NCBI RefSeq assembly: GCF_013282575.1 | Contig: NZ_JAAAYE010000004.1 | Span: forward strand, 124,001 to 188,000 | Direction of reading: 5' to 3' | From: Paraburkholderia sp. NMBU_R16 | Lineage (GTDB): Bacteria > Pseudomonadota > Gammaproteobacteria > Burkholderiales > Burkholderiaceae | Length of the DNA stretch: 64,000 nt | In this document: positions 29,132 to 40,920 of the stretch, piece by piece | How the letters are laid out: each line of letters begins with the position of its first letter | How positions within the stretch are numbered: position 1 is the stretch's first letter | Notes under the pieces: model-generated | The model's database searches: none | Told to the model about the DNA's origin: nothing | Seen by the model: the letters and a program-made list of their open reading frames with translations, nothing else | Translations under genes and position numbers: made by a program

Positions 29132-31772
29132 TGGCCTGTTCATGCAGCTCGTAGAGGAGATCGAGCGCGGCGCGCGGGTTGAGCTCGTTGGGGTCGATGC
29201 CGCGCAGGCGGCTGATGACCGGGTGCGGTGGCGCATCGTGTTCGTGCGCGGATTCATCGGGTGCATCTTCGACGAACGGTGCCGCCGCGAACAAATCGAG
29301 CTGCGGTGTTGCGTAACCGACCGATTGCTGCTCGAGGTGTGCAAGATGTTTGCGCGCGGCGCGTATGACGGCGGCCGGCACGCCCGCCAGTTGCGCGACC
29401 TGGAGCCCGTAACTCTGGCTTGCGGGGCCTTCTTCGACTGCATGGAGAAAGACGATCCCATGCCCATGCTCGACGGCGGACAAGTGGACGTTCGCGGCCT
29501 GCGGGAATTCAGCCGGCAGTTGCGTGAGCTCGAAATAGTGTGTGGCGAAAAGCGTCTGGCAACCGTTGTGCGCGAGCAGGTGCCGGGCGATGGCCCAAGC
29601 GAGTGCGAGGCCGTCGAACGTCGACGTGCCGCGACCGATTTCATCCATCAATACGAGGCTCGCCGGCGTTGCGTCGTTGAGGATTGCGGCGGCCTCCGTC
29701 ATCTCCACCATGAACGTGGAACGGCCGCCGGCCAGATCGTCGGCGGCGCCGATGCGGGTGAAGATTCGATCGATCGGTCCGAACCTGGCACGGCGGGCCG
29801 GCACGTAACTGCCGACATAGGCGAGCAGCGCGATCAATGCCGTTTGCCGCATGAACGTCGATTTACCGCCCATATTGGGGCCGGTGATCAACAGCAGTTT
29901 GCGCTCGTGGCTCAGGCGGCAGTCGTTTGCGACGAACTGCTCGACCTGCGCCTCGACGACGGGGTGCCGTCCCTGCTCGATATCGATCCCTATCTCGGTC
30001 GTGAAAGTGGGTGCGACCCAGTCGAGGGCTTGCGCACGTTCCGCGAAGGCGGCCAGTAAGTCGAGCTCGGCAAGCGCCGAAGCCACACGCTGACATTCGC
30101 CGATGTACGGCAGCAACGCTTGAAGCACGGCGTCGTAGAGCGCTCGCTCGCGTGCAAGCGCGCGTTCCTGCGCCGATAGCGCCTTGTCTTCGAATGTCTT
30201 GAGCTCCGGCGTGATGTAACGCTCCGCATTCTTGAGCGTCTGACGCCGACGGTAGTCGTCGGGGACCTTGTCGGTTTGCCCTCGCGTCACCTCGATATAG
30301 AAACCGTGGACCTTGTTGTATTCGACGCGCAGATTGGCGATGCCGGTACGCGCGCGCTCACGCGCTTCGAGGTCGATGAGGAATTGCCCGCAGTTTTCCG
30401 AGATATCGCGCAACTCGTCGAGCTCGGCGTCATAGCCACGTGCGACGACGCCGCCGTCGCGCACCATCGCGGCCGGCTCCTGGGCGATGGCGCGCTGGAG
30501 CAGTTCGCCGCATTCACGCGGCGGCTCGAGGGCGGCCGCGATGCGTTCGAGCGCAATCGCGCCGGCCGCGGCGTGCGCCACCTGTTCGCGCAGCGCGGGC
30601 AGGGCGGCGAACGTATCGCGCAAGCTCGACAAGTCGCGGGGGCGCGCCGATAGCAATGCGAGGCGCCCTGTGATGCGTTCGATGTCGGCGATGTGCCGTA
30701 AGGCCGTTCTGAGCGCATCGAGACTTGCATGGACAGGCGCATCGAGGAGCGCGCCGATCGCGCCGTGCCGCTCGCGCGCCGACGCTGCGTCGCGCGGCGG
30801 GTGATGGAGCCAATGACGCAGCAGGCGGCTGCCCATCGTCGTACAGCAGGTATCGAGCAACGAGCACAGTGTCGGCGATTCGCCGCCGCGCAGCGTCTCG
30901 GTCAGCTCCAGATTGCGGCGCGTCGCAGGGTCCAGCCCGATGTACTCGGATTCATACTCGACCCTGAGACTGCGGACGTGCCGCAGTTGTTGCCCTTGTG
31001 TCGCCGAGGCATACAACAGCAGCGCACCGGCCGCTCCGCACGCGGCCGTCAGCGATTCAGCACTGAAGCCGTCGAGGCTCGCGACGTTCAACTGATCGCA
31101 AAGCCGCTGTTTGCCCGATGCGATATCGAAATGCCATGTGGGCACGCGCGTGACAGTACCGGGTACGGTAGACGGGAGCAGCGCTGCCGGCGTGTCGGCG
31201 GCCAGGATTTCGGCCGGCCGGATGCGTTCGAGCGCGGCAGCGAGCTGGTCTGGCGCTACCTCGGCCAGCCTCAGTGCGCCGCTCGCGAGATTGAGCCAGG
31301 CGAGACCGACGCCCGTTACGATGCCGCGTTTATTGTGCGCGGGGCTCATCGCAAGCAGATAGGCGTCGCTCTTGTCTGCGAGCAGCGCTGCATCCGTCAG
31401 GGTGCCAGGGGTCACCACGCGCACGACCTTGCGCTCGACCGGGCCCTTCGACGCAGCCGGATCGCCGATCTGCTCGCAGATCGCGACCGACTCGCCGAGT
31501 TTGACGAGCTTCGCCAGATATTGCTCGACCGCGTGATGCGGCACGCCGGCCATCTTGATCGGATTGCCGGCCGATGCACCGCGCTGCGTGAGTGTCAGAT
31601 CGAGCAGGCGCGCCGCTTTTTCGGCGTCCTCATAGAACAGCTCGTAAAAGTCGCCCATTCGATAGAAAACGAGCGTGCCGGGGTGTTCCGCCTTGATGCG
31701 CAAATACTGCTGCATCATCGGCGTATGCGCGGCTACGTCAGGGGCGCCGGGTGCTTCGATTGGATTGCCCAT
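29106..31772 (-). CDS. mutS: DNA mismatch repair protein MutS
   Basis: An 888-residue mismatch recognition ATPase. The mismatch-contacting Phe-X-Glu is in [12 protein letters not shown] (residues 40-50), then connector, lever and clamp domains, then the ATPase with Walker [10 protein letters not shown] near 640 and Walker [17 protein letters not shown]. Length is slightly above E. coli MutS (853) owing to the C-terminal region. A TA module lies upstream on the same strand. Confidence 0.97.
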
Positions 31773-31880
31773 CTCAGTGTCTTTCGTGCTTGCGAGTACA
31801 GCGCGAGAGTGTACCGCGACGAAGGGTTTGAGCAGTCGGCCGAATGGCCAACGAGGGCCGCATCGCCACGCGATGGCGGC

Positions 31881-32273
31881 TCAGGCAAATGCGATGACGT
31901 CCTTGGATTCGAGAACGTTGATCTTGATGATGACTTCGTGAGCCAACAATGCAGGCCTTTTTGCTCTGCCGGCACCTTCGATCAGCTTCACGAAGCCCGT
32001 GGCCGCCATCTTGCTCAGCGTACGGCTCACGTTGGGTTCCGCCCGGCCTGCGAGATTGGCGAGCTCCGCGACGGACTCGGGGCGATGGCTTTCGATGAGG
32101 GAGAGCAGGTGCCGATTTTCCGGCGTCAGCAAGCGGACAATGGCTTCGGCCGATTCGAAGACCTCTTGCGATTCATAGGAAGTCTCGCCGGCGTCCGCCG
32201 GCGCTTCGCGCTCGTTACGCGCCACGGCCAGCATTTCTTTTTTCAACGACTTGAGGGTTTGGATCTTCGCCAT
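31881..32273 (-). CDS. antitoxin-like winged-helix regulator of the TumE pair
   Basis: A 130-residue DNA-binding protein of the COG4190/HVO_A0114 type. A winged helix-turn-helix spans about residues 45-110, with SVAELANLAGRAEPNVSRTLSKM as the recognition region. It starts 12 bases after the stop of the TumE-like toxin gene, the usual toxin-first order of this pair. It probably neutralises the toxin and represses the operon. Confidence 0.8.
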   Translation of the reverse strand: MAKIQTLKSLKKEMLAVARNEREAPADAGETSYESQEVFESAEAIVRLLTPENRHLLSLIESHRPESVAELANLAGRAEPNVSRTLSKMAATGFVKLIEGAGRAKRPALLAHEVIIKINVLESKDVIAFA

Positions 32274-32285
32274 GGTGTGCTCCGT

Positions 32286-32672
32286 CTAGTGGTGCTCTGT
32301 GACTTCGAATGGAACGTCAAGCTCATCGAGCCTTCTCTCGACCTCACCGAAAAAATCCGCGACAAGCTTTTCTGCGGATTCGAAGCGGTATGGGCGGCCT
32401 TTGTCGTCATGGGTCCGGTGCCAATGATCGGCCGCCACGGGGCGGGCAAGGAACCGATTGCCTCGCGCACGAACGGCATGTGCATTGTCGAATCCCAATA
32501 GCCGCTTGCTGTCCGGGCCATGAAGCGTGAACGAATACGAAAGTCCGTGTGGAACACGCTCCGACTTTTGAACCTGCTTCACTTCGAACCTCAGAAAATA
32601 TCCGTCCGCCAAAACATGTTCGCGCCCGTCGTAGCCCAACAGAAATTCAAGAGAGTGCTCGGGTAGGTGCAT
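32286..32672 (-). CDS. TumE-family (DUF6516) toxin
   Basis: A 128-residue soluble protein of the TumE toxin family, recognised from the closing PYRFESAEKLVADFFGEVER segment and the central YSFTLHGPDSKRLLGFDNAH. The start ATG gives MHLPEHSLEFLLG. It is paired with the winged-helix gene directly downstream. Activity of the family is not well defined; the TA assignment comes from family and gene pairing. Confidence 0.8.
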   Translation of the reverse strand: MHLPEHSLEFLLGYDGREHVLADGYFLRFEVKQVQKSERVPHGLSYSFTLHGPDSKRLLGFDNAHAVRARGNRFLARPVAADHWHRTHDDKGRPYRFESAEKLVADFFGEVERRLDELDVPFEVTEHH

Positions 32673-32831
32673 AGTATCCTGTCGTGATAGGGAAGTAAAG
32701 GGTTGTCTGGAATGCTGCACAAGCGCTTCGGCGCATTTGGCACTCACGAAGAGGATGGATGTGGAGGGCGGGTGTCGGCAGTCGGTCGAACGACCAACGA
32801 TGAGGGGGAGAGGGAGCGCGCCTTGCGGGCT

Positions 32832-33626
32832 TCAGTGCGCGAGGACGCTGCGCCGGCGCAGCAGTGCGCTGGCCGTATCGACGAAGGCCGCGAGCACGAG
32901 CATCGCGACGATCACCGTGCATGCCTGCGGCAGGTGGAACAGTGAGAGCTCGTAGTAGAGCATCTGGCCGAGACCGCCTGCGCCGACGAAGCCCAGAATC
33001 GCTGCCATGCGGATGTTGGTCTCCCATCGATAAAGCACATACGCCAGGAACTGCGGCTGGACGCAGGGCAGCGTTCCATAGACGAAGGCCATGGCATGAG
33101 AACTTCCTACTTCCGTCAGCGCACGCGCGGGCGCATCTGGTGCATTCTCCAGCGTTTCGGCGAAAAGGCGGCCCAGGACGCCAGCGGTATGCAGCGCCAG
33201 CGCAAGGGTACCGGCGAACGGCCCCAGTCCGGCGACGAGAACGGTCAAGGTCGCCCACACGAGTTCGGGGACGGCGCGCAGCACATTCAGCAGCAAACGC
33301 GATAGCGCGCGCAGACTCCTTCCGTACATGCCCGAGGCCGGCAGGGCCAACGCAAAGCCGAATAATGCCGCACAGAGCGTCCCGATGGCGGAAACGGCAA
33401 GCGTTTCGAGCATGCTGCCAGCTGTCTTCGAGAGAAACGCTGGCGATAGCTCAGGCGGGAAGAACGACAGCAGGAAATGCAGCATGTCGCCGGCGGCGGC
33501 CGCCGAAACGAGCTGGCCGAGATCGAGCGAGAGATAGGCGAAGCTGCCCAGCACCGCCATGGCGACAGCGATTCCCATGACCAGGCATTTCGTGCAGATG
33601 CGGACCGGTTCGGCTTCGCTCGCCAT
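32832..33626 (-). CDS. PhnE-like ABC permease of a putative selenium importer (second permease)
   Basis: A 264-residue inner-membrane permease with about six helices and the binding-protein-dependent EAA-like loop around [14 protein letters not shown]. The family is PhnE (phosphonate/phosphite type). It begins three bases after the stop of a second PhnE-like gene, so the transporter has a heterodimeric permease. Context with selD, senB and a selenate-type binding protein suggests it moves a selenium oxyanion rather than phosphonate. Confidence 0.85.
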   Translation of the reverse strand: MASEAEPVRICTKCLVMGIAVAMAVLGSFAYLSLDLGQLVSAAAAGDMLHFLLSFFPPELSPAFLSKTAGSMLETLAVSAIGTLCAALFGFALALPASGMYGRSLRALSRLLLNVLRAVPELVWATLTVLVAGLGPFAGTLALALHTAGVLGRLFAETLENAPDAPARALTEVGSSHAMAFVYGTLPCVQPQFLAYVLYRWETNIRMAAILGFVGAGGLGQMLYYELSLFHLPQACTVIVAMLVLAAFVDTASALLRRRSVLAH

Positions 33627-33629
33627 CGC

Positions 33630-34451
33630 TCAGTCCAACAGTTTGCGCAAGCCCGCGCTGAGCGCATCCGCGAGCAGCACGAGCAGCAAAAACGTCACGA
33701 GGATCGTCGCCGTTTCGCCGCCGTCGAGCATCTTCATCGCCTGATCCATCAATTGGCCGAGCCCGCCGGCCCCGACGAATCCCATGACCACCGATGCGCG
33801 GATTGCGCACTCCCAGCGATATACCGTGTACGACACGAGTTCGCGCGCCGCATTGGGCAATAGACCATAGGCCAGCGCCGACAGACGCGGGCTGCCGCTG
33901 CCGAGCAGCGCATGCGCCGGGCGCGCGTCGCTCGATTCGAGGATTTCCGTATAGACCTTGGCCAGCATGCCGCCGTAGGTGATTGCGAGCGCCAGCACGC
34001 CGGCGGCGGGCCCGAGTCCCAGCACCCGTACGAACACCAGTGCCCAAACGAGCTCCGGTATGCCCCGTAGCAGCAGCACGACGACGCGTACGCCGGCGCG
34101 CGTCACTGCGCGTATTCGATATCCGCGGCCGGGGCCGATCCGCGAAACCGACAAGTTGCGGGTCATGGCGGTAGCCAGCGGCGCGGCGAGGATGAACGCG
34201 AGCGCGATTCCGGCCGTGGCAATCGCCAACGTTTCGACCGTGGCCTTCGCGACCAAGCCCAGAAATTCCGCCGAAGCGTCCGGCGGAAGGAAGTGGCCGA
34301 GAAAACTTCCTGCAACCTTCAAATTGCCGGCCTCGAACAGGGCCGCCGGATGAAATTTCGACAGCCTCAAGAGCGGCCACAGCACGATCAGCGCAAGCAC
34401 CAGGGTGGACGCGCGACGCAGTGCGAGAGGATCGCGGGGATGCGCGATCAT
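33630..34451 (-). CDS. PhnE-like ABC permease of a putative selenium importer (first permease)
   Basis: A 273-residue inner-membrane permease, paralogous to the next gene downstream, with the same [15 protein letters not shown] loop. The ATG overlaps the stop of the ATPase gene (ATGA), and the stop is three bases before the next permease. Both permeases share the segment RGIPELVWA / RAVPELVWA, consistent with an old duplication. Confidence 0.85.
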
Positions 34452-35269
34452 TGGCAGGCCGTCCGTGGCGAGGGACCGCGCGTCGAGCGGATCGATACCG
34501 TGTCGTCGCCTTGTACCGGCGGGACGTCGCCTTCGGATGCATAAAGCTCTCGCAGCAATGCATCGCTGACGCGTGCGACGGGCAAGTCGAAGGCGATTTC
34601 TCCCGACCTCAGGCCGACGATGCGCGGAAACCAGCGCAGCGCGAGATCGACCGCATGCAGGCTGGCCACCAGTGCCGCACCATCCGCGTCGGCCTGCTTG
34701 CACAGTTCGCCGAGGGCAAGGTTGGACAACGTGGGATCCATGGCCGATACGGGCTCGTCCGCCAGGACCAAATCGGGACGCTGGTACAGCACGCGCGCGA
34801 TGCCGACGCGCTGCAACTGACCGCCGGACAATCGATCGCAGCGATCGAACAGGCGATCGGCCAGCTCGAGCCGCGCGAGCTGATCGCCGGCGCCCGTCGT
34901 ATCGAGCGGATAGACCAAAGAGAGCAAAGACTTCCATCCCGGCCAAGCCCCGAGGCGGCCCGCGAGAACGGCCGTGACGACGCGCTGGCGTGGCGGCAGG
35001 GGGGGCGCCTGGTGCACCATGCCGATGCGCGATCGCAATCGCCGCAGGCGTGCCGCCGATAGCTCCCACGGGCTGAGGCCGAGGACCTCGACGCGACCCT
35101 CGCTGGGCCGCAGGGAGGTGGCGAGCAAGCGCAGCATCGAAGTCTTTCCCGCGCCCGATGGACCGATGAGCGCAATGCGCTCGCCGCGCTGCGCGGAGAG
35201 CGTGATCTGCCTGAGCGCCCGGTGCCCGTTGGGGTAGCCGAGGCCGACCGCGTCGAGCTGGAAGCTCAC
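34448..35269 (-). CDS. PhnC-like ABC ATPase of a putative selenium importer
   Basis: A 273-residue ATPase subunit. It has Walker [11 protein letters not shown]-loop [12 protein letters not shown], signature [15 protein letters not shown] and Walker [14 protein letters not shown] chose GTG at 35269, which overlaps the stop of the binding-protein gene and yields the standard N-terminus [14 protein letters not shown]; the frame remains open upstream but only as the shadow of that gene. Confidence 0.87.
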
Positions 35270-36141
35270 TTGATCAGGCCCGCGGTGCGAGCCGCCGCTT
35301 CGATGCCGGCATAGTTTTCCGGCTTGGTCGGAATGAATTTGACGGTCCGTTGCAACGCCATGATGGCCCGTTGCTCGGGATCGTGCGGGTCCAAGCGGAG
35401 GAAAGCTTCGGTCAAAGTCTTGCGCAAGGCCGGATCGAGTCCGCCGCGCACGGTCCAGTTGTAATCGTAGTAGGGCGGTGTCACGGCGAATACCCTCACC
35501 TTCGCCGGATCCACCTTGTGCTGCTCGACCAGCTTGTCCCACACCGACGAGTTGAGCACGCCCGCGTCGGCCCTGCCGGACTGCACGAAAGCGGCGGTTG
35601 CGTCGTGCGCGCCCGAAAACGCCACCGTCTTGAAGTCCTTGTCGGGATCGATGCCCGCTTGCAGCAGGAAATAACGCGGCATCAAGTGGCCGGACGTCGA
35701 TGACGGCGCGCCGAAGACGAACGTGTGGCCCTTCAGATCCGCCAACGATTTGATGCCAGGGTCGGCCGTGATGAACTTGCTCGTGAACGTCGCATCTTCC
35801 TGCCGTTGTACGATGGGCACCGTTGCGCCATTCGTGCGGATCTTGCTTTGCACATAGGTAAAGCCGCCCAACCAGGCGAGGTCGATCTTGCCGGTCGCGA
35901 GCGACTCGACGACCGCCGCATAGTCCGTGACCGGCACGAACTCGACCTTCATTCCCGTTTCCTTCTCGAGGTATTTACCCAGCGGCGCGAACTTGCGCTG
36001 CAGTTCGGTCGGCGATTCGTCGGGGATGGCCGACACTTTCAGCACATGTTGCTGTGCCCTGGCGGGCGCGAGAAAAACAAGGCCAAAGAGGGCGATTGCG
36101 GCAAGGCGTTTGAGGACGGGCCAGAGGGCGATGAAGGGCAT
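35266..36141 (-). CDS. putative selenate/selenium-type ABC transporter substrate-binding protein
   Basis: A 291-residue periplasmic binding protein of the PhnD superfamily. A signal peptide covers about residues 1-29 (ending ARAQ). The mature protein begins [28 protein letters not shown] and contains [12 protein letters not shown] and [18 protein letters not shown] PhnD subgroup that sits beside selD is described as the putative selenate ABC binding protein; here selD is the adjacent gene upstream, 51 bases away. The ligand is inferred from this context. Confidence 0.82.
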
Positions 36142-36192
36142 GGTGCGCCGAAATCCAATGGTGGTTGAGTGAACGGTTGATGCGAAACCTGT

Positions 36193-37248
36193 TTATGCCA
36201 CGGCGACCCGGGCGGGACCCGGGATCATCTCGCCGATCACGGCCGCGTCTTCGAATCCTTCGCTGCGGAAAATATCGAGAATCGCGTCCGCGGCGCTCGG
36301 TGCGCAGGACACGAGCAGACCGCCGCTCGTTTGAGGATCGGTCAGCAGCGCTTGCAGGCTAGGCGTGATCGACGAGGCCAGGTCCACCGCATCGCCATAG
36401 CTGGCCCAGTTGCGCGCCGACGCTCCGGTCACCATGCCGGCACTCGCGAGTTCGAGCACGCCCGGCAGCAACGGAATCCGATCCATGTTCAAGCTCGCGC
36501 CCAGACCCGCGCCGCGGCAAAGTTCCAACAAATGGCCGAGCAGACCGAAGCCGGTGACGTCTGTCAGCGCGTGGACGTCCATCACATCGGCGAGGCGCCG
36601 TCCCGGTGTATTGAGCTGAGTGGTGCACGCGATCAGCGCCCGGTAGCCGGCCGCATCGAGTTTGTCTTTTTTGACCGCCGCGGATAGTACGCCCACGCCC
36701 AGCGGTTTGCCGAGGATCAGCTTGTCCCCAGGCTGGGCGGCGTCGTTTTTCTTGATTCGATCGGGATGCACGAGCCCCAGCACCACGAGGCCATAAATCG
36801 GTTCGACGGAGTCGATCGTATGGCCGCCCGCGACCGGAATGCCGGCTTGCGCGCAGACGGATTCCCCGCCCTCGAGGATTTTGGCGATGACTTCGGTCGG
36901 CAGCTTGTCGATGGGCATACCCACCAGTGCGAGCGCCATGATGGGCGTTCCACCCATTGCATAGACATCGGAGATGGCATTGGTGGCGGCGATACGCCCG
37001 AAGTCGTATGGATCGTCGACCACCGGCATGAAGAAGTCGGTAGTGGCGATCAGTGCCTGGCTTTCGTTGAGCTTGTAGACAGCGGCATCGTCGCTGGTTT
37101 CCTTGCCGACGAGCAGTGCTGCCGGAGCGGGCAGGCGCATCGAATTCTTCAGAATTTCGGACAGCACGCCCGGGGCAATTTTGCATCCGCATCCGCCGCC
37201 GTGGGAGAGCGATGTGAGTTTGATCGTTGCGTTGGCTGGCTGATTCAC
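36193..37248 (-). CDS. selD: selenide, water dikinase (selenophosphate synthetase), SelD/SenC
   Basis: A 351-residue cytoplasmic enzyme making selenophosphate from selenide and ATP. The catalytic pair Cys20 and Lys23 lies in the Gly-rich loop GGGCGCK; the position equivalent to Sec in some homologues is Cys. Other motifs are TTDFFMPVVDDPYDFGRIAATNA and LTDVTGFGLLGHL. The start is GTG at 37248, with GGAGAC five bases upstream. It is 13 bases after senB and probably serves as SenC for selenoneine. No selA, selB or tRNA-Sec gene is in the window. Confidence 0.94.
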   Translation of the reverse strand: MNQPANATIKLTSLSHGGGCGCKIAPGVLSEILKNSMRLPAPAALLVGKETSDDAAVYKLNESQALIATTDFFMPVVDDPYDFGRIAATNAISDVYAMGGTPIMALALVGMPIDKLPTEVIAKILEGGESVCAQAGIPVAGGHTIDSVEPIYGLVVLGLVHPDRIKKNDAAQPGDKLILGKPLGVGVLSAAVKKDKLDAAGYRALIACTTQLNTPGRRLADVMDVHALTDVTGFGLLGHLLELCRGAGLGASLNMDRIPLLPGVLELASAGMVTGASARNWASYGDAVDLASSITPSLQALLTDPQTSGGLLVSCAPSAADAILDIFRSEGFEDAAVIGEMIPGPARVAVA

Positions 37249-37261
37249 GAGAGGTCTCCGG

Positions 37262-38257
37262 TTATGTCGGGCGCAGGGCGTCGGCCACAAGTTTAATCAC
37301 TTCGGCGCGCTCCCGCGCGGGCGCGAAAAGCGGCGCGCGCCGCGCGCACTGTCGGCGCAGGCGCGTCAGAAAGCCGGTATCCTGGCTTGCCCGCTGGAGT
37401 AGTTCTGCCAGCTGCGCCGCCTCGCCGGGCGGGAAATAGCCTTCATAATCGCGGCCCAGCATCCCGATATTGCCCGGGATGCGACTCGCCAACACGGGTA
37501 CGCCGCTCGTGATCGCCTCGACGATGACGTTGGCGCCGCCTTCCATGACGCTTGAAATCACCAGCGCTTGCGCGCCGGCGATCCGTCGCCGCGTCTCGGC
37601 ATGCGGCAGATTCGCCAGCCACACATAGCGCTCGCCGAGCGGCCATGTTTGCGCTTGCAGTGCCTGCGCTGCTCGCTGATATTCATCGTCGAGCGCACCG
37701 CCGATGTGAGTCAGGCGTATGCGCGAATCGTCGGGAAGAAGGGCGAGAGACCGCATGGCGGTCAGCGGATCCTTTTCCGGCCGCATGTGGCCGACGAGTA
37801 CGACGTCGAAGTATGCGGAATCCACGGGGGGAGAATGGCACGCGATTGCCGATTGATAGATCACACGGCACTTCGCGCGATGGGCGGCGGACAGCTCGAA
37901 CGGGCCTTCGTCTTGCAGCACCACGAGATGCGTCGCGAGCTCGAGGGAACGCTGCGCGGCGGGATCGCTCCGGATGTCCCGGTAAAGGTCCGTTCCCGTG
38001 AGGACCACTATCAACGGGTGTTTTGGGCACGCATCGGCGAATCGCGCGACGGCGTCGGCCGAGCGCCGCGCATGCAGGGCGATCAGGCATGCGGGCGCCA
38101 GATCGCCCGCGGCGGGCCCCGGCCATTCGCTCGCCAGCGTGACATCGTAGCCGGCGCGCAGAAACCGGGACCAGCGATGAGCGGTTTGCCAGTTGCCGTT
38201 GTTGGCTTTGCGCAGCGCCGGGCTGATAATCGCAATCGTTGGCTTCGGAGGACGCAT
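37262..38257 (-). CDS. senB: selenoneine biosynthesis selenosugar synthase SenB
   Basis: A 331-residue GT4-like glycosyltransferase. In the known pathway SenB uses selenophosphate and UDP-GlcNAc to form a selenosugar. Features are the N-terminal IAIISPALRKANNGNWQTA, typical of this family, the mid-protein GHMRPEKDPLTAMRSL and the nucleotide-sugar motif EGGANVIVEAITSGVPVLAS. ATG 38257 gives MRPPKPTIAI, the expected start. It diverges from senA with an overlapping start and leads an operon with selD and the ABC importer. Confidence 0.9.
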   Translation of the reverse strand: MRPPKPTIAIISPALRKANNGNWQTAHRWSRFLRAGYDVTLASEWPGPAAGDLAPACLIALHARRSADAVARFADACPKHPLIVVLTGTDLYRDIRSDPAAQRSLELATHLVVLQDEGPFELSAAHRAKCRVIYQSAIACHSPPVDSAYFDVVLVGHMRPEKDPLTAMRSLALLPDDSRIRLTHIGGALDDEYQRAAQALQAQTWPLGERYVWLANLPHAETRRRIAGAQALVISSVMEGGANVIVEAITSGVPVLASRIPGNIGMLGRDYEGYFPPGEAAQLAELLQRASQDTGFLTRLRRQCARRAPLFAPARERAEVIKLVADALRPT

Positions 38258-39467
38258 GACACTCGGCTCTGAGGGAATAGCGGCAAGACACATGGGTAAG
38301 GTCGAGCTGGCCGCGGCATTTACCGATTCGCACCGGCGAACCTGGGACGTCCTTCGGAATCTGTCGCCGTCTCAGTGGCAGGTCCGCTACGACCGCGGCA
38401 TCAACCCGCCCTTGTGGGAGTATGCACACATCGCGTGGTTTACGGAGCATTGGGTCCTCAGGGCGCCGCGCCCCGGCCAGGATGGCCGCTTGAGCGCGAC
38501 ATTGCCTTCCACGATGGAACAGGCGGACGGCCTTTTCGATTCGATGCGCGTGGCACATCGGGATCGCTGGCATCTGGTGTTACCGTCGCATGCCGAAATA
38601 CGCCAGTATGGCGCTGATGTACTGGAGCGGGTTCTTGCCGCGCTCGATGCGGCGGACGAAACGGATCGGGATCTCTATTTTTTCAGGCTTGCGTTGTTCC
38701 ACGAGGACATGCACGCGGAAGCGCTGACTTACATGCGCCAGACGCTCGATTACCCGCCGCATGCGCCGCTCGTCCTGCCTGCGGTACGCTCGAACGCGGG
38801 GGCCGCAGCGGCGGGTGGGGAAACGTTCGCGATGGGGTCGCGGGCCGGAGAAGGATTCGTCTTCGACAACGAGAAGTGGGCGCATCCGGTCGATGTCCCC
38901 CCGTTCCGAATCGATCGGACGTGTGTCAGCAATGCGGCCTTCGCCCAATTCGTGGACAGCGGCGGATACCTCGACCCGCAATGGTGGTCCGCATCCGGTA
39001 CTGCGTGGCTGCGACAAAGCGGCCTTGCTCATCCCGCGCGCTGGCGTCCCGCCGGCGATGCAACCGTGGCTGGCCGCCCCGGCCAATGGGAATGGCGCTG
39101 GTTCGGCGAGTGGGTGCCGCTGCCGCTCGAGTTGCCCGTATGCCATGTCAATGCCTTCGAGGCCGAAGCGTATTGCCGCTGGGCGGGCAAGCGTTTGCCG
39201 ACGGAGGCGCAATGGGAATACGCGGCCACGCGTGAGCTGATCGAATGGGGTGATTCGGTGTGGGAATGGACATCCGATTCGTTTTTGCCGTACGCGGAGT
39301 TTTCCGCCGATCCCTACGAGGAATACTCGCTGCCTTGGTTCGGTAGCCATCGGTCGGTTCGCGGAGGCTCGTTCGTGACCCGCGAACGCATGCAGCATCC
39401 TCGGTATCGCAATTTCTATTTGCCGCATAGAAACGACATCTTTGCCGGATTTCGCTGCTGCGCGTGA
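38256..39467 (+). CDS. senA: selenoneine synthase SenA
   Basis: A 403-residue EgtB-like non-heme iron enzyme. In the known pathway SenA joins the selenosugar to hercynine in an oxygen-dependent step, forming the C-Se bond of selenoneine. The N-terminal DinB-like domain (about 15-165) supplies iron ligands: His58 in YAHIAWFTEH and HEDMHAE with His149 and His153. The C-terminal FGE-sulfatase domain (185-403) has GKRLPTEAQWEYAA, DSVWEWTSD, VRGGSF and the closing FAGFRCC. GGAGG four bases before ATG 38256 favours that start; ATG 38292 is possible. Distinguishing it from EgtB rests mainly on senB and selD next door. Confidence 0.88.
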   Translation: MTLGSEGIAARHMGKVELAAAFTDSHRRTWDVLRNLSPSQWQVRYDRGINPPLWEYAHIAWFTEHWVLRAPRPGQDGRLSATLPSTMEQADGLFDSMRVAHRDRWHLVLPSHAEIRQYGADVLERVLAALDAADETDRDLYFFRLALFHEDMHAEALTYMRQTLDYPPHAPLVLPAVRSNAGAAAAGGETFAMGSRAGEGFVFDNEKWAHPVDVPPFRIDRTCVSNAAFAQFVDSGGYLDPQWWSASGTAWLRQSGLAHPARWRPAGDATVAGRPGQWEWRWFGEWVPLPLELPVCHVNAFEAEAYCRWAGKRLPTEAQWEYAATRELIEWGDSVWEWTSDSFLPYAEFSADPYEEYSLPWFGSHRSVRGGSFVTRERMQHPRYRNFYLPHRNDIFAGFRCCA

Positions 39468-39496
39468 CCCGTTTGGCCGGCGGCGGGCACTGCGGC

Positions 39497-40795
39497 TCAT
39501 TCGTCGATCATCGCCTCGATGTCCAGATGCCGCGCGTTCGCATCGCCGCGCCGCTTTACGAGCCAGATCATGGCGCAGACGAACGTGCCGAACGCGACGA
39601 TGATCCATTGCACCGGCATCTTCGCCGCGAGCAACAGGGCATAGGCGCCGAGCATCAACAGCACTGCGATGTTCTGATTGAAATTCTGTACGGCAATCGA
39701 ATGGCCGGCCGTCACGAGCGTCGCGCCGCGATGCTGCAAAAGAGCGTTCATCGGCACGACGAAAAAGCCCGCCAGGCCGCCGAGGCCGATCATCAGCGGA
39801 TACGCGAGCAGAACGTAAAGCGGCAAGAAAGCGCTGCCCAAATGAGCGCCTGCGGAAGCAGGGAAAAGCCCTTTACCGTAGAACGCCATCGCTGCCGTCA
39901 CGATGCCGGCGGCCATGCCGACCGGCAGCACGCGTAGCGAACGCACGAGGGGTACCCATGCTGCGGCGGCCGCGGCGCCTAAAGCGATGCCGATGCCCGT
40001 TGCCCCCTGCATCAGCGCGGCTTTCGACAGCGTCAGGCCGAGATTGACTGCGGCCCATTTGAGCACGAGCAACTGGAGCGTGACGGCGGCGCCCCACATC
40101 AGCGTCGTCACTGCCAGCGGGATTTGGGCCAGCTTGTCCACCCATAGCGTGTTGAAGCATTCGAGGAAGTCGGCGAGCAGTCGGCCGGGCTCGCGCAGGC
40201 GGTTCGGATACCGGGCGCCCGTATCGGGGATCCCGATGTTGACGAGCGCGGCCAGCCCGTACACCGACATGACGGCGAACATGGCGCACTGCGGCGCATG
40301 GGGTATCAACGGCAAGTGCCTGGCCGCGATAGCGTGCTCGACGTAGGCGCTGACGAGCGCGCCGCCCAGCGCGGTGCCGGCAATGGTCGAGAGCACGGTT
40401 GCCGATTCGAGCCAGGCGTTGGCCGCAACGAGCCGCTCGGCCGGCAGTAGTTCAGTGAGGATGCCGTACTTGGCGGGCGAGTAGGCCGCCGCGCCGAAAC
40501 CCACCACACCATAGGCGATGATCGGATGCACGCCGGCGATCATCATTGCACAGCCGATCGCCTTGGCCGCGTTGGCCGTGAACATGACGTGGCGCTTTTG
40601 CATGGCATCGGCGAATGCGCCGACGAACGGGGCAAGCAGCACGTAGGACGCCGTGAAGAAGATTTGCAGCAAAGGCGTGACCCAACTGGCGGCACGCATG
40701 GCGGACAGCAGTGCGATCGCTGCGATGAGCAGCGCGTTATCGGCTACCGATGAGACGAACTGAGCGGCAATGATCGTGTAAAAGCCTTTCTTCAT
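39497..40795 (-). CDS. lplT: lysophospholipid transporter LplT
   Basis: A 432-residue MFS membrane protein with about 12 helices that flips lysophospholipids inward for reacylation. The N-terminus KKGFYTIIAAQFVSSVADNAL and the motif AYSPAKYGILTELLPAERLVAANAW are characteristic. No acyltransferase (aas) partner is adjacent. The ATG 40795 gives the family start. Confidence 0.9.
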   Translation of the reverse strand: MKKGFYTIIAAQFVSSVADNALLIAAIALLSAMRAASWVTPLLQIFFTASYVLLAPFVGAFADAMQKRHVMFTANAAKAIGCAMMIAGVHPIIAYGVVGFGAAAYSPAKYGILTELLPAERLVAANAWLESATVLSTIAGTALGGALVSAYVEHAIAARHLPLIPHAPQCAMFAVMSVYGLAALVNIGIPDTGARYPNRLREPGRLLADFLECFNTLWVDKLAQIPLAVTTLMWGAAVTLQLLVLKWAAVNLGLTLSKAALMQGATGIGIALGAAAAAAWVPLVRSLRVLPVGMAAGIVTAAMAFYGKGLFPASAGAHLGSAFLPLYVLLAYPLMIGLGGLAGFFVVPMNALLQHRGATLVTAGHSIAVQNFNQNIAVLLMLGAYALLLAAKMPVQWIIVAFGTFVCAMIWLVKRRGDANARHLDIEAMIDE

Positions 40796-40826
40796 GGAGA
40801 AACGGCGACGATGGCGCGCGGATGGA

Positions 40827-40856
40827 CAAAAACGCAAAGGGCGGCCGAAGCCGCCC
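40827..40856 (-). terminator. rho-independent terminator after suhB
   Basis: Read on the minus strand, a 7-base-pair stem GGGCGGC / GCCGCCC with a four-base TTCG loop is followed by a T-rich stretch CTTTGCGTTTTT. It lies 65 bases after the suhB stop and before lplT. Confidence 0.7.
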
Positions 40857-40920
40857 CCGTTACATGACCTGACGTTGGCCTGACCGGTCCGCGCACGCGG
40901 ACCGGCGCCCCGGTTCGCCG

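Follow-up and report, generated by a model that had tools for sequence, protein, structure and literature searches.

We analysed a 64,000-nt stretch of the Paraburkholderia sp. NMBU_R16 genome (NZ_JAAAYE010000004.1, positions 124,001-188,000; hereafter the window), which carries a seven-gene locus at window positions 32832..39467 (Table 1). All seven genes are open reading frames at the places given by an earlier sequence-only reading. Likely start codons were picked by eye for each gene, and NCBIfam scores were compared to the curated cut-offs, with the ranges scored being some codons off the starts picked afterwards.

Table 1. Features of the selenium locus, in window coordinates.
Feature	Position	Strand	Start codon and evidence
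senA, selenoneine synthase, 403 aa	38256..39467	+	ATG 38256; NF041186 515 bits (cut-off 420); solved relatives; tree
CATG, senA/senB start codon overlap	38255..38258	no strand	CATG in 15/17 aligned rows, window included
senB, selenosugar synthase, 331 aa	37262..38257	-	ATG 38257; TIGR04348 446 bits (cut-off 300); solved SenB relatives
selD (senC), selenophosphate synthetase, Cys form	36193..37248	-	GTG 37248; TIGR00476 437 bits (cut-off 125)
Periplasmic binding protein, PhnD/PtxB-type importer	35266..36141	-	ATG 36141; TIGR04553 388 bits (cut-off 250)
Importer ATPase	34448..35269	-	GTG 35269; ABC_tran PF00005; best NCBIfam match PhnC 208.5 bits, below cut-off 266.1
Importer permease 1	33630..34451	-	ATG 34451; PF00528; PhnE 190.6 bits, below cut-off 216.7
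Importer permease 2	32832..33626	-	ATG 33626; PF00528; PhnE 231.1 bits, above cut-off 216.7

The open frames and family scores bear out the arrangement described in that reading, in which senA diverges from a tight minus-strand run of senB and selD that continues into a binding protein (TIGR04553), an ATPase (PF00005) and two permeases (PF00528). A gap of 51 bases separates selD from the binding-protein gene. The ATPase gene overlaps the binding-protein gene by 4 bases (GTGA) and the permease 1 gene overlaps the ATPase gene by 4 bases (ATGA). The start codons of senA and senB overlap within CATG, and thus no intergenic spacer separates the two divergent genes. GGAG lies just before senA in each of the aligned rows with CATG, two of the rows (L040 and L087) being the same genome. 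A search of positions 31700-40900 gave 1 promoter-like match against 1.8 expected in shuffles, and so provided no evidence for a promoter between senA and senB. Base composition showed no sign of foreign origin, with a G+C content of 64.4% for the cluster and 63.8% for the window.

Synthesis enzymes and their partners in the genome

SenA, SenB and SelD are encoded together at the locus and all three score above their NCBIfam cut-offs. SenA carries the HX3HXE motif as HEDMHAE, as expected for the EgtB-like senA named in the sequence-only reading. The nearest solved structures by sequence were SenA (8ryz/8k5i, 306 bits), followed by OvsA (220 bits) and EgtB (177 bits). Reciprocal scoring separated SenA from the genome's own EgtB, which scored 527 bits on the EgtB model (TIGR03440, cut-off 360) and 331 on the SenA model, compared to 262 and 515 for SenA. 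In the SenA tree, the window protein lies among SenB-adjacent proteins and outside the EgtB clade, a position named beforehand as a check, with a branch marked 100* separating it from the EgtB of its own genome.

These data bear on the alternative that SenA is an ergothioneine synthase and that the cluster makes ergothioneine. SenA has the same domains and HX3HXE site as such enzymes, and SenA-like proteins from one genus (g25), with no senB in flanks of about 1.5 kb, group with SenA rather than with EgtB in the tree. Against this, the EgtB model score lies below its cut-off, the supported branch places SenA with the SenB-adjacent proteins, and a separate EgtB, above the EgtB cut-off, is encoded beside EgtD. 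We rejected SenA as EgtB on these grounds, and regard ergothioneine as the product of the cluster as highly improbable.

The possibility that SenB is a generic glycosyltransferase was not upheld, given its TIGR04348 score and its retention of key SenB residues. Its nearest solved structures by sequence are SenB 8k5u/8jjq/8fbx (281-284 bits). Residues N20, T23, K158, E231 and E239, named as key in papers on Variovorax SenB, correspond to N22, T25, K162, E239 and E247 here (aligned by eye) and are invariant in an alignment of 11 sequences. The SenB motif reads EGGANV here, not EGGAHV.

SelD has the motif HGGGCGCK and is the only SelD in the genome above the family cut-off. SelU is present in the genome, while egtD, for hercynine, lies beside egtB on another contig (C19). 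The sequence-only reading had called the selenoneine locus complete and the selenium-to-selenoneine route self-contained. The grouping of senA, senB and selD stands, but "complete" is not exact with egtD on C19, and "self-contained" is too strong because, in addition, SelU draws on the same single SelD. We rejected selenocysteine use, SelA not being found in the genome. A tRNA-Sec search did not discriminate: it gave two matches 1.3-1.4 bits above the gathering score and seven below, and all 14 control genomes also matched, five of them above the cut-off. No SelD relatives were found in viral contigs.

The importer and its binding pocket

The binding protein has a signal-peptide-like N-terminus (judged by eye) and scores below the cut-off on the phosphonate PhnD model (TIGR03431, 175 bits, cut-off 261). 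A profile search against the selenate PhnD subgroup had been proposed earlier, and its TIGR04553 score supports the family assignment. The selenate label does not discriminate, since TIGR04553, named "putative selenate", also accepts a PhnD crystallized with phosphite (chain 5lq5, 302 bits), as well as chain 7s6g, which scores 338 bits; the name is therefore no proof of substrate. A search of a plasmid collection gave two records of the binding protein at the limit used.

We compared the pocket to that of Pm_PhnD (5LQ5, phosphite complex), using the positions reported for that structure, with D13, N176 and Y206 forming the cap. All 11 pocket and cap positions (Y46, F90, S126, T127, S128, H158, D205, D13, N176, Y206 and I11) are identical in the window protein, and the Tyr cap is present in 103/103 binding-protein sequences. 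Te_PtxB is reported to bind phosphite at 0.17 uM and the tetrahedral phosphate at 46.8 uM. From its residues, a phosphite-type pocket with a Tyr cap would fit pyramidal selenite better than tetrahedral selenate.

Linkage of the importer to selenium genes

SenB and the importer lie within 7.5 kb of each other in 14 of the 50 order-level genomes holding both (window included), spread over six families, and egtD is found in 11 of the 13 other linked loci. In a quick tree of the binding proteins, the state of being linked to sen genes switches 13 times, with 10 of these changes forced by supported (starred) branches. Linkage of importers of this type to genes for selenium use, for which a survey of related genomes had been proposed earlier, was found repeatedly. 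The identical seven-gene order occurs in L037, L038 and L088 (Cupriavidus necator UYPR2.512), and several relatives (L039, L040, L093-L095) have senA-senB with no importer gene in the stretch examined.

Among the 74 importer loci examined (of 92 in all, found by the importer alone), 24 have selD, selU or sen genes within about 10 kb of the importer and 50 have no selenium gene at this distance. Some links may be hidden, because nine of these 50 stretches lie on contigs shorter than 10 kb. Across genomes, which are related to each other, selD is present in 86/92 with the importer and 199/307 without it. Six importer genomes show no selD, and in four of these (G403, G414, G438 and G448) SelU also fell short of the thresholds applied. 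A broken pocket and an incomplete genome account for two of the four. In G448 the pocket motif is broken and no permease match adjoins the binding protein, and G414 has a SenB piece below the cut-off. The other two, G403 (95% complete) and G438 (86%), belong to one genus and retain an intact pocket.

Besides the importer itself, the commonest named neighbour families were SenA/EgtB, SelD, SenB and EgtD (97 loci, 37 of them picked for a nearby senB). A linked phosphite dehydrogenase gene, ptxD, is a feature of phosphite PhnD/PtxB importers. No phosphite-dehydrogenase-like family was found among ten of the other recurrent importer neighbours scanned, two of which matched nothing. An ergothioneine-related role for the importer, suggested by its frequent position next to egtD, was rejected, as egtD never occurs without selD in 60 importer loci outside the senB-linked set. 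We also rejected the idea that a novel partner takes the place of senA where that gene is missing, since the gene at the divergent position in L119, L158 and L163 encodes an ordinary SpoU-type RNA methylase.

The main rival to a selenium importer, which we regard as unlikely, is transport of phosphite or a different reduced phosphorus anion by a system whose position next to selenium genes has nothing to do with selenium. The identical Pm_PhnD pocket, the acceptance of 5lq5 and 7s6g by TIGR04553, and the two importer genomes of one genus with an intact pocket and neither selD nor SelU are all consistent with phosphite. However, the importer is repeatedly linked to selD, selU, senB and senA in many families, and its top named neighbours are selenium and hercynine genes, with no match to phosphite dehydrogenase in the neighbours scanned. 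It is distinctly unlikely that the importer serves mainly tRNA selenouridine, with its place beside the sen genes a by-product of selD being there. The selU and selD genes do adjoin the importer without sen genes in G305, G415, G588 and G687, and SelU is present in the NMBU_R16 genome, but in L076, L077 and L086 the importer lies beside egtD or senA, with selD beyond senB on the other strand. Transport of selenate, following the family name, appears very unlikely, since that name is a non-discriminating prediction, the Tyr cap leaves space for a hydrogen or lone pair, Te_PtxB binds phosphite far more tightly than tetrahedral phosphate, and no selenate reductase was seen among the locus genes.

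Proposed route and comparison with known systems

The reading that we favour, and consider probable, is that these genes form a selenoneine cluster equipped with its own selenite importer, feeding both selenoneine and tRNA selenouridine. We infer selenium as the importer substrate from gene linkage and not from a sequence model. Weighing against this reading are the pocket shared with phosphite-bound PhnD, the importer loci with no selenium gene nearby, the importer genomes without selD and the relatives that have senA-senB but no importer gene in the stretch examined. Selenite, an anion whose three oxygens give it a pyramidal shape, would most likely be captured in the periplasm by the binding protein and carried inward by the ATPase and the pair of permeases. 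General cell thiols would then reduce selenite to selenide, no reductase gene having been seen in the locus, and SelD would convert selenide to selenophosphate. By homology to the Variovorax route, in which SenB is reported to put selenium on a UDP-sugar and SenA to join the selenosugar to hercynine, SenB is predicted to transfer selenium to a UDP-sugar and SenA to couple the selenosugar oxidatively to hercynine, giving selenoneine. Hercynine would be supplied by EgtD from C19, where EgtB would also use it for ergothioneine. The importer may feed two selenium uses, because the single SelD would also serve SelU.

More broadly, PhnD1/TIGR04553-type importers might be the missing dedicated bacterial selenite importers, with a pocket shaped for pyramidal anions of three oxygens, the selenite lone pair replacing the P-H of phosphite, and phosphite binding by some members, among them the solved PhnD chains accepted by TIGR04553, being mimicry; we offer this as a tentative and somewhat doubtful proposal. 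According to reviews from 2022 and 2026, identification of a high-affinity selenium transport system (specific high-affinity in the latter) is still lacking for prokaryotes. A possible forerunner is an ABC transporter-related ATPase which, according to a review, was earlier predicted to accompany a SelD-based trait of unknown use. The openings of abstracts in the open-licence literature gave no report of a sen-linked importer. The importer at this locus is a concrete candidate for a dedicated bacterial selenium importer, probably for selenite, and belongs to a type tied to selenium genes repeatedly, in many loci with selD, senB, senA and egtD. A single protein and a single mutant would suffice to put selenium import to the test, and our prediction is selenite rather than selenate. 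The current TIGR04553 "selenate" model, we caution, does not distinguish selenium importers from proteins that bind phosphite.

Comparison with known systems indicates what is shared and what differs at this locus. Like the sen cluster of Variovorax paradoxus, it has senA, senB and senC, all with their family marks and with the SenB catalytic residues kept. Relative to the published description of that cluster, the run here continues past selD into a four-gene importer, and senA and senB diverge from start codons that overlap. The EgtB/EgtD ergothioneine pathway shares hercynine, and SenA is a relative of EgtB, whereas the sulfur or selenium donor differs and the egtB-egtD pair lies separately on C19. 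With the phosphite-binding PhnD (5LQ5) and PtxB, the binding protein shares the Tyr cap and every pocket residue reported for Pm_PhnD, but it is encoded among genes for selenium and hercynine metabolism. Finally, the locus resembles the "putative selenate" TIGR04553 importers in its score on that model and in encoding the same components (a binding protein, an ATPase and two permeases). Whereas the substrate of those importers is a family prediction only, the importer here is linked to senA and senB as well as selD, and its pocket argues for selenite.

Identity of the selenoneine enzymes

SenA, SenB, SelD and the TIGR04553 ('putative selenate') periplasmic binding protein of the window all score above the cut-offs of their curated models, which upholds the sen identities proposed in the sequence-only reading. 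Two other importer components, the ATPase and permease 1, do not reach the cut-offs of phosphonate-specific models. We compared the proteins to solved structures by sequence. Window SenA was most similar to SenA (306 bits), followed by OvsA (220 bits) and EgtB (177 bits), and window SenB was closest to SenB (284 bits), with conservation, at positions read from alignments, of the residues described as key in the consulted portions of the SenB papers. In a quick SenA/EgtB tree (59 rows, subsampled from 119) window SenA groups with senB-adjacent proteins and a branch of support 100 separates it from the host's own EgtB, as expected of a SenA distinct from EgtB; the long-branch warnings concern rows other than these two. 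The SenA side includes 14 proteins that lack a close senB in the available flanking DNA.

SenA-like proteins of genus g25 (L008, L009, L011-L020, L022 and L023) score approximately 392–401 bits, slightly below the SenA cut-off of 420. Those entered in the tree fall on the SenA side, and senB was not found in their flanks of about 1.5 kb. They may have reverted to sulfur or adopted a different substrate. Separately, an importer-sen locus from a relative, L076, encodes SelD and a pyridine nucleotide-disulfide oxidoreductase as one fusion protein (TIGR03169, 506 bits; TIGR00476, 284 bits), possibly a built-in selenium reduction step.

Gene layout, origin and precursor supply

The host genome comprises 6.28 Mb in 562 contigs, with the window on contig C4. 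With starts chosen from reading frames, the successive junctions of the minus-strand genes are gaps of 13 and 51 bases, then two overlaps of 4 bases each, and finally a gap of 3 bases. senA has the opposite orientation. Its start overlaps that of senB in a single CATG, so no spacer separates the pair, and a promoter of either would have to sit inside the oppositely oriented gene. Of 17 aligned rows (window counted; L040 and L087 are one genome), 15 share this CATG, the exceptions being L097 and L098. GGAG lies directly 5' of senA in all 15, and a later ATG of window senA is not ATG in any of the remaining 16 rows.

Features of the sen locus and of loci discussed with it
Feature	Position	Strand	Remark
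senB, selD, binding protein, ATPase, two permeases		minus	consecutive, in the order listed
Shared CATG holding the senA and senB start codons	38255-38258	both	from alignment
Two small genes resembling a TumA/TumE-type toxin-antitoxin pair	31881-32747	minus	HVO_A0114, 61 bits; TumE, 31.5 bits; between mutS and the sen cluster
SelD-oxidoreductase fusion	10434-12938 of L076		in an importer-sen locus

The distance from lplT to mutS is 7.7 kb in the window. Six genus relatives have a close lplT neighbour gene, none with sen genes in that stretch; mutS lies 1.3–2.3 kb from lplT in three, and was not found in the available stretch of the other three. Patchy presence, together with kin in Cupriavidus and Paraburkholderia, suggests that the sen locus was acquired by transfer, of which the base composition of the cluster shows no trace.

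EgtD (409 bits) and EgtB (527 bits) are encoded side by side on contig C19, which would enable the genome to make hercynine, though not from the sen locus. The sen-locus selD is the single copy above the cut-off, with two further weak matches below it, and SelU is encoded on contig C47, thus SelD has two clients; SelA was not found in a profile search of the host genome. The earlier description of the locus as self-contained therefore fails in detail, with EgtD on C19 and SelD also serving SelU, but the full route is present in the genome overall.

Linkage of the importer to sen genes

Of 249 genomes in the family, 5 encode a SenA that scores above the cut-off. Across 399 genomes of the order, SenB was found above cut-off in 116, the importer protein in 92, SelD in 285 and SelU in 281. 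Both SenB and the importer are present in 50, only SenB in 66, only the importer in 42 and neither in 241 (odds ratio 4.3, or 2.5 among selD carriers; the genomes are not independent). The two lie within 7.5 kb in 14 of the 50 co-carriers (window included, six families), 24 kb apart in one and on different contigs in 35; the linkage recurs in relatives. Linked loci show several orders and orientations, and egtD lies inside 11 of the 13 linked order-level loci besides the window, whose own locus lacks it.

A SenB-seeded scan of named relatives (best 80 of 585, flanks incomplete in 35) placed the importer protein within 10 kb of SenB in 21, senA in 63, selD in 61 and egtD in 21. Among these 80, the window gene order is repeated in Cupriavidus necator UYPR2.512 and Cupriavidus sp. 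BIS7, while selD was not found between senB and importer in Paraburkholderia tagetis or Cupriavidus lacunae; importer matches in P. tagetis comprise the binding protein and permease 2 only. Seven importer loci (L082, L083, L085, L126, L138, L148 and L155; four named Massilia) contain egtD, egtB, selD and senB, with senA not found in the available stretch, which for L155 ends just upstream of senB. Their senA may be located elsewhere; otherwise the selenosugar would be a substrate of EgtB or of a different enzyme.

Importer contexts were examined in 74 of the 92 genomes: 14 are senB-linked, 40 lack SenB above cut-off and 20 carry SenB elsewhere. At a distance of up to about 10 kb, selD, selU or sen genes accompany the importer in 24 of the 74, namely all 14 of the first group, 8 of the second and 2 of the third; the other 50 have no such selenium gene, with nine of the 60 non-senB-linked stretches being contigs under 10 kb. 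In a phylum survey of 138 genomes the importer protein occurs in 11, eight of them outside the order; of these eight, one has senB and selD adjacent, one selD and selU, and six none. Among 97 importer loci, 37 of them chosen for nearby senB and L162 skipped for want of a binding-protein match, the commonest named non-importer neighbours are SenA/EgtB (26), SelD (25), SenB (24) and EgtD (21). Three unnamed clusters (36, 15 and 12 loci) resemble antisense reading frames in the few members inspected, and every other cluster occurs in seven loci at most.

In a quick tree built from 103 binding-protein sequences (L156 dropped as too short) the sen-linked label changes 13 times, 10 of them forced by starred branches; gains and losses are not separable, and some of the rows labelled unlinked may be wrong owing to short contigs. 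The importer-sen link has repeatedly been formed or lost. The window protein belongs to a seven-member clade in which all seven are sen-linked.

Importer substrate and relation to known systems

The binding protein is closest by sequence to the phosphonate-type structure 7s6g (193 bits), then to phosphite-type structures. All pocket residues of Pm_PhnD (5LQ5, a phosphite complex) named in the consulted part of a paper on phosphite binding proteins align with identical residues in the window protein: I39, D41, Y74, F119, S148, T149, S150, H179, N197, D226 and Y227. Across the 103 proteins Y74, S148, H179 and Y227 are invariant, T149, S150 and F119 are kept in all except L185, and D41/N197/D226 are mostly D/N/D. 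In 21 (e.g. L207, L209 and L212) these three outer residues shift together to E/D/N, a ready natural variant for specificity comparison.

Four importer genomes lack selD, SelU and SenB above cut-off. In G448 (99% complete) the binding protein, L185, has lost the S-T-S motif and no permease was matched beside it; G414 (85% complete) contains a fragment of SenB that scores under the cut-off; G403 and G438 retain an intact pocket and are true exceptions.

In a control scan of solved chains, TIGR04553 scored 5lq5 at 302 bits and 7s6g at 338, both above its cut-off of 250. Since the 'putative selenate' model accepts a phosphite complex that shares the pocket, neither model nor pocket tells selenite from phosphite, and it is gene linkage that supports selenite. 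Selenate is a different case. According to the consulted part of the structural work, the cap Tyr has space above three oxygens for H or a lone pair and nothing else, and in a capped relative the binding values are 0.17 µM for phosphite and 46.8 µM for tetrahedral phosphate, which is bound 275 times more weakly. We therefore predict that the importer substrate would be selenite rather than selenate.

Judged from its genes, the window contains a genuine selenoneine locus to which an importer is linked. Searches of open-licence papers did not turn up a description of a sen block with importer, and the original sen paper may already show such neighbours. The sen enzymes here are of an already known kind, and the importer-bearing block, elsewhere also with egtD, is a variant.
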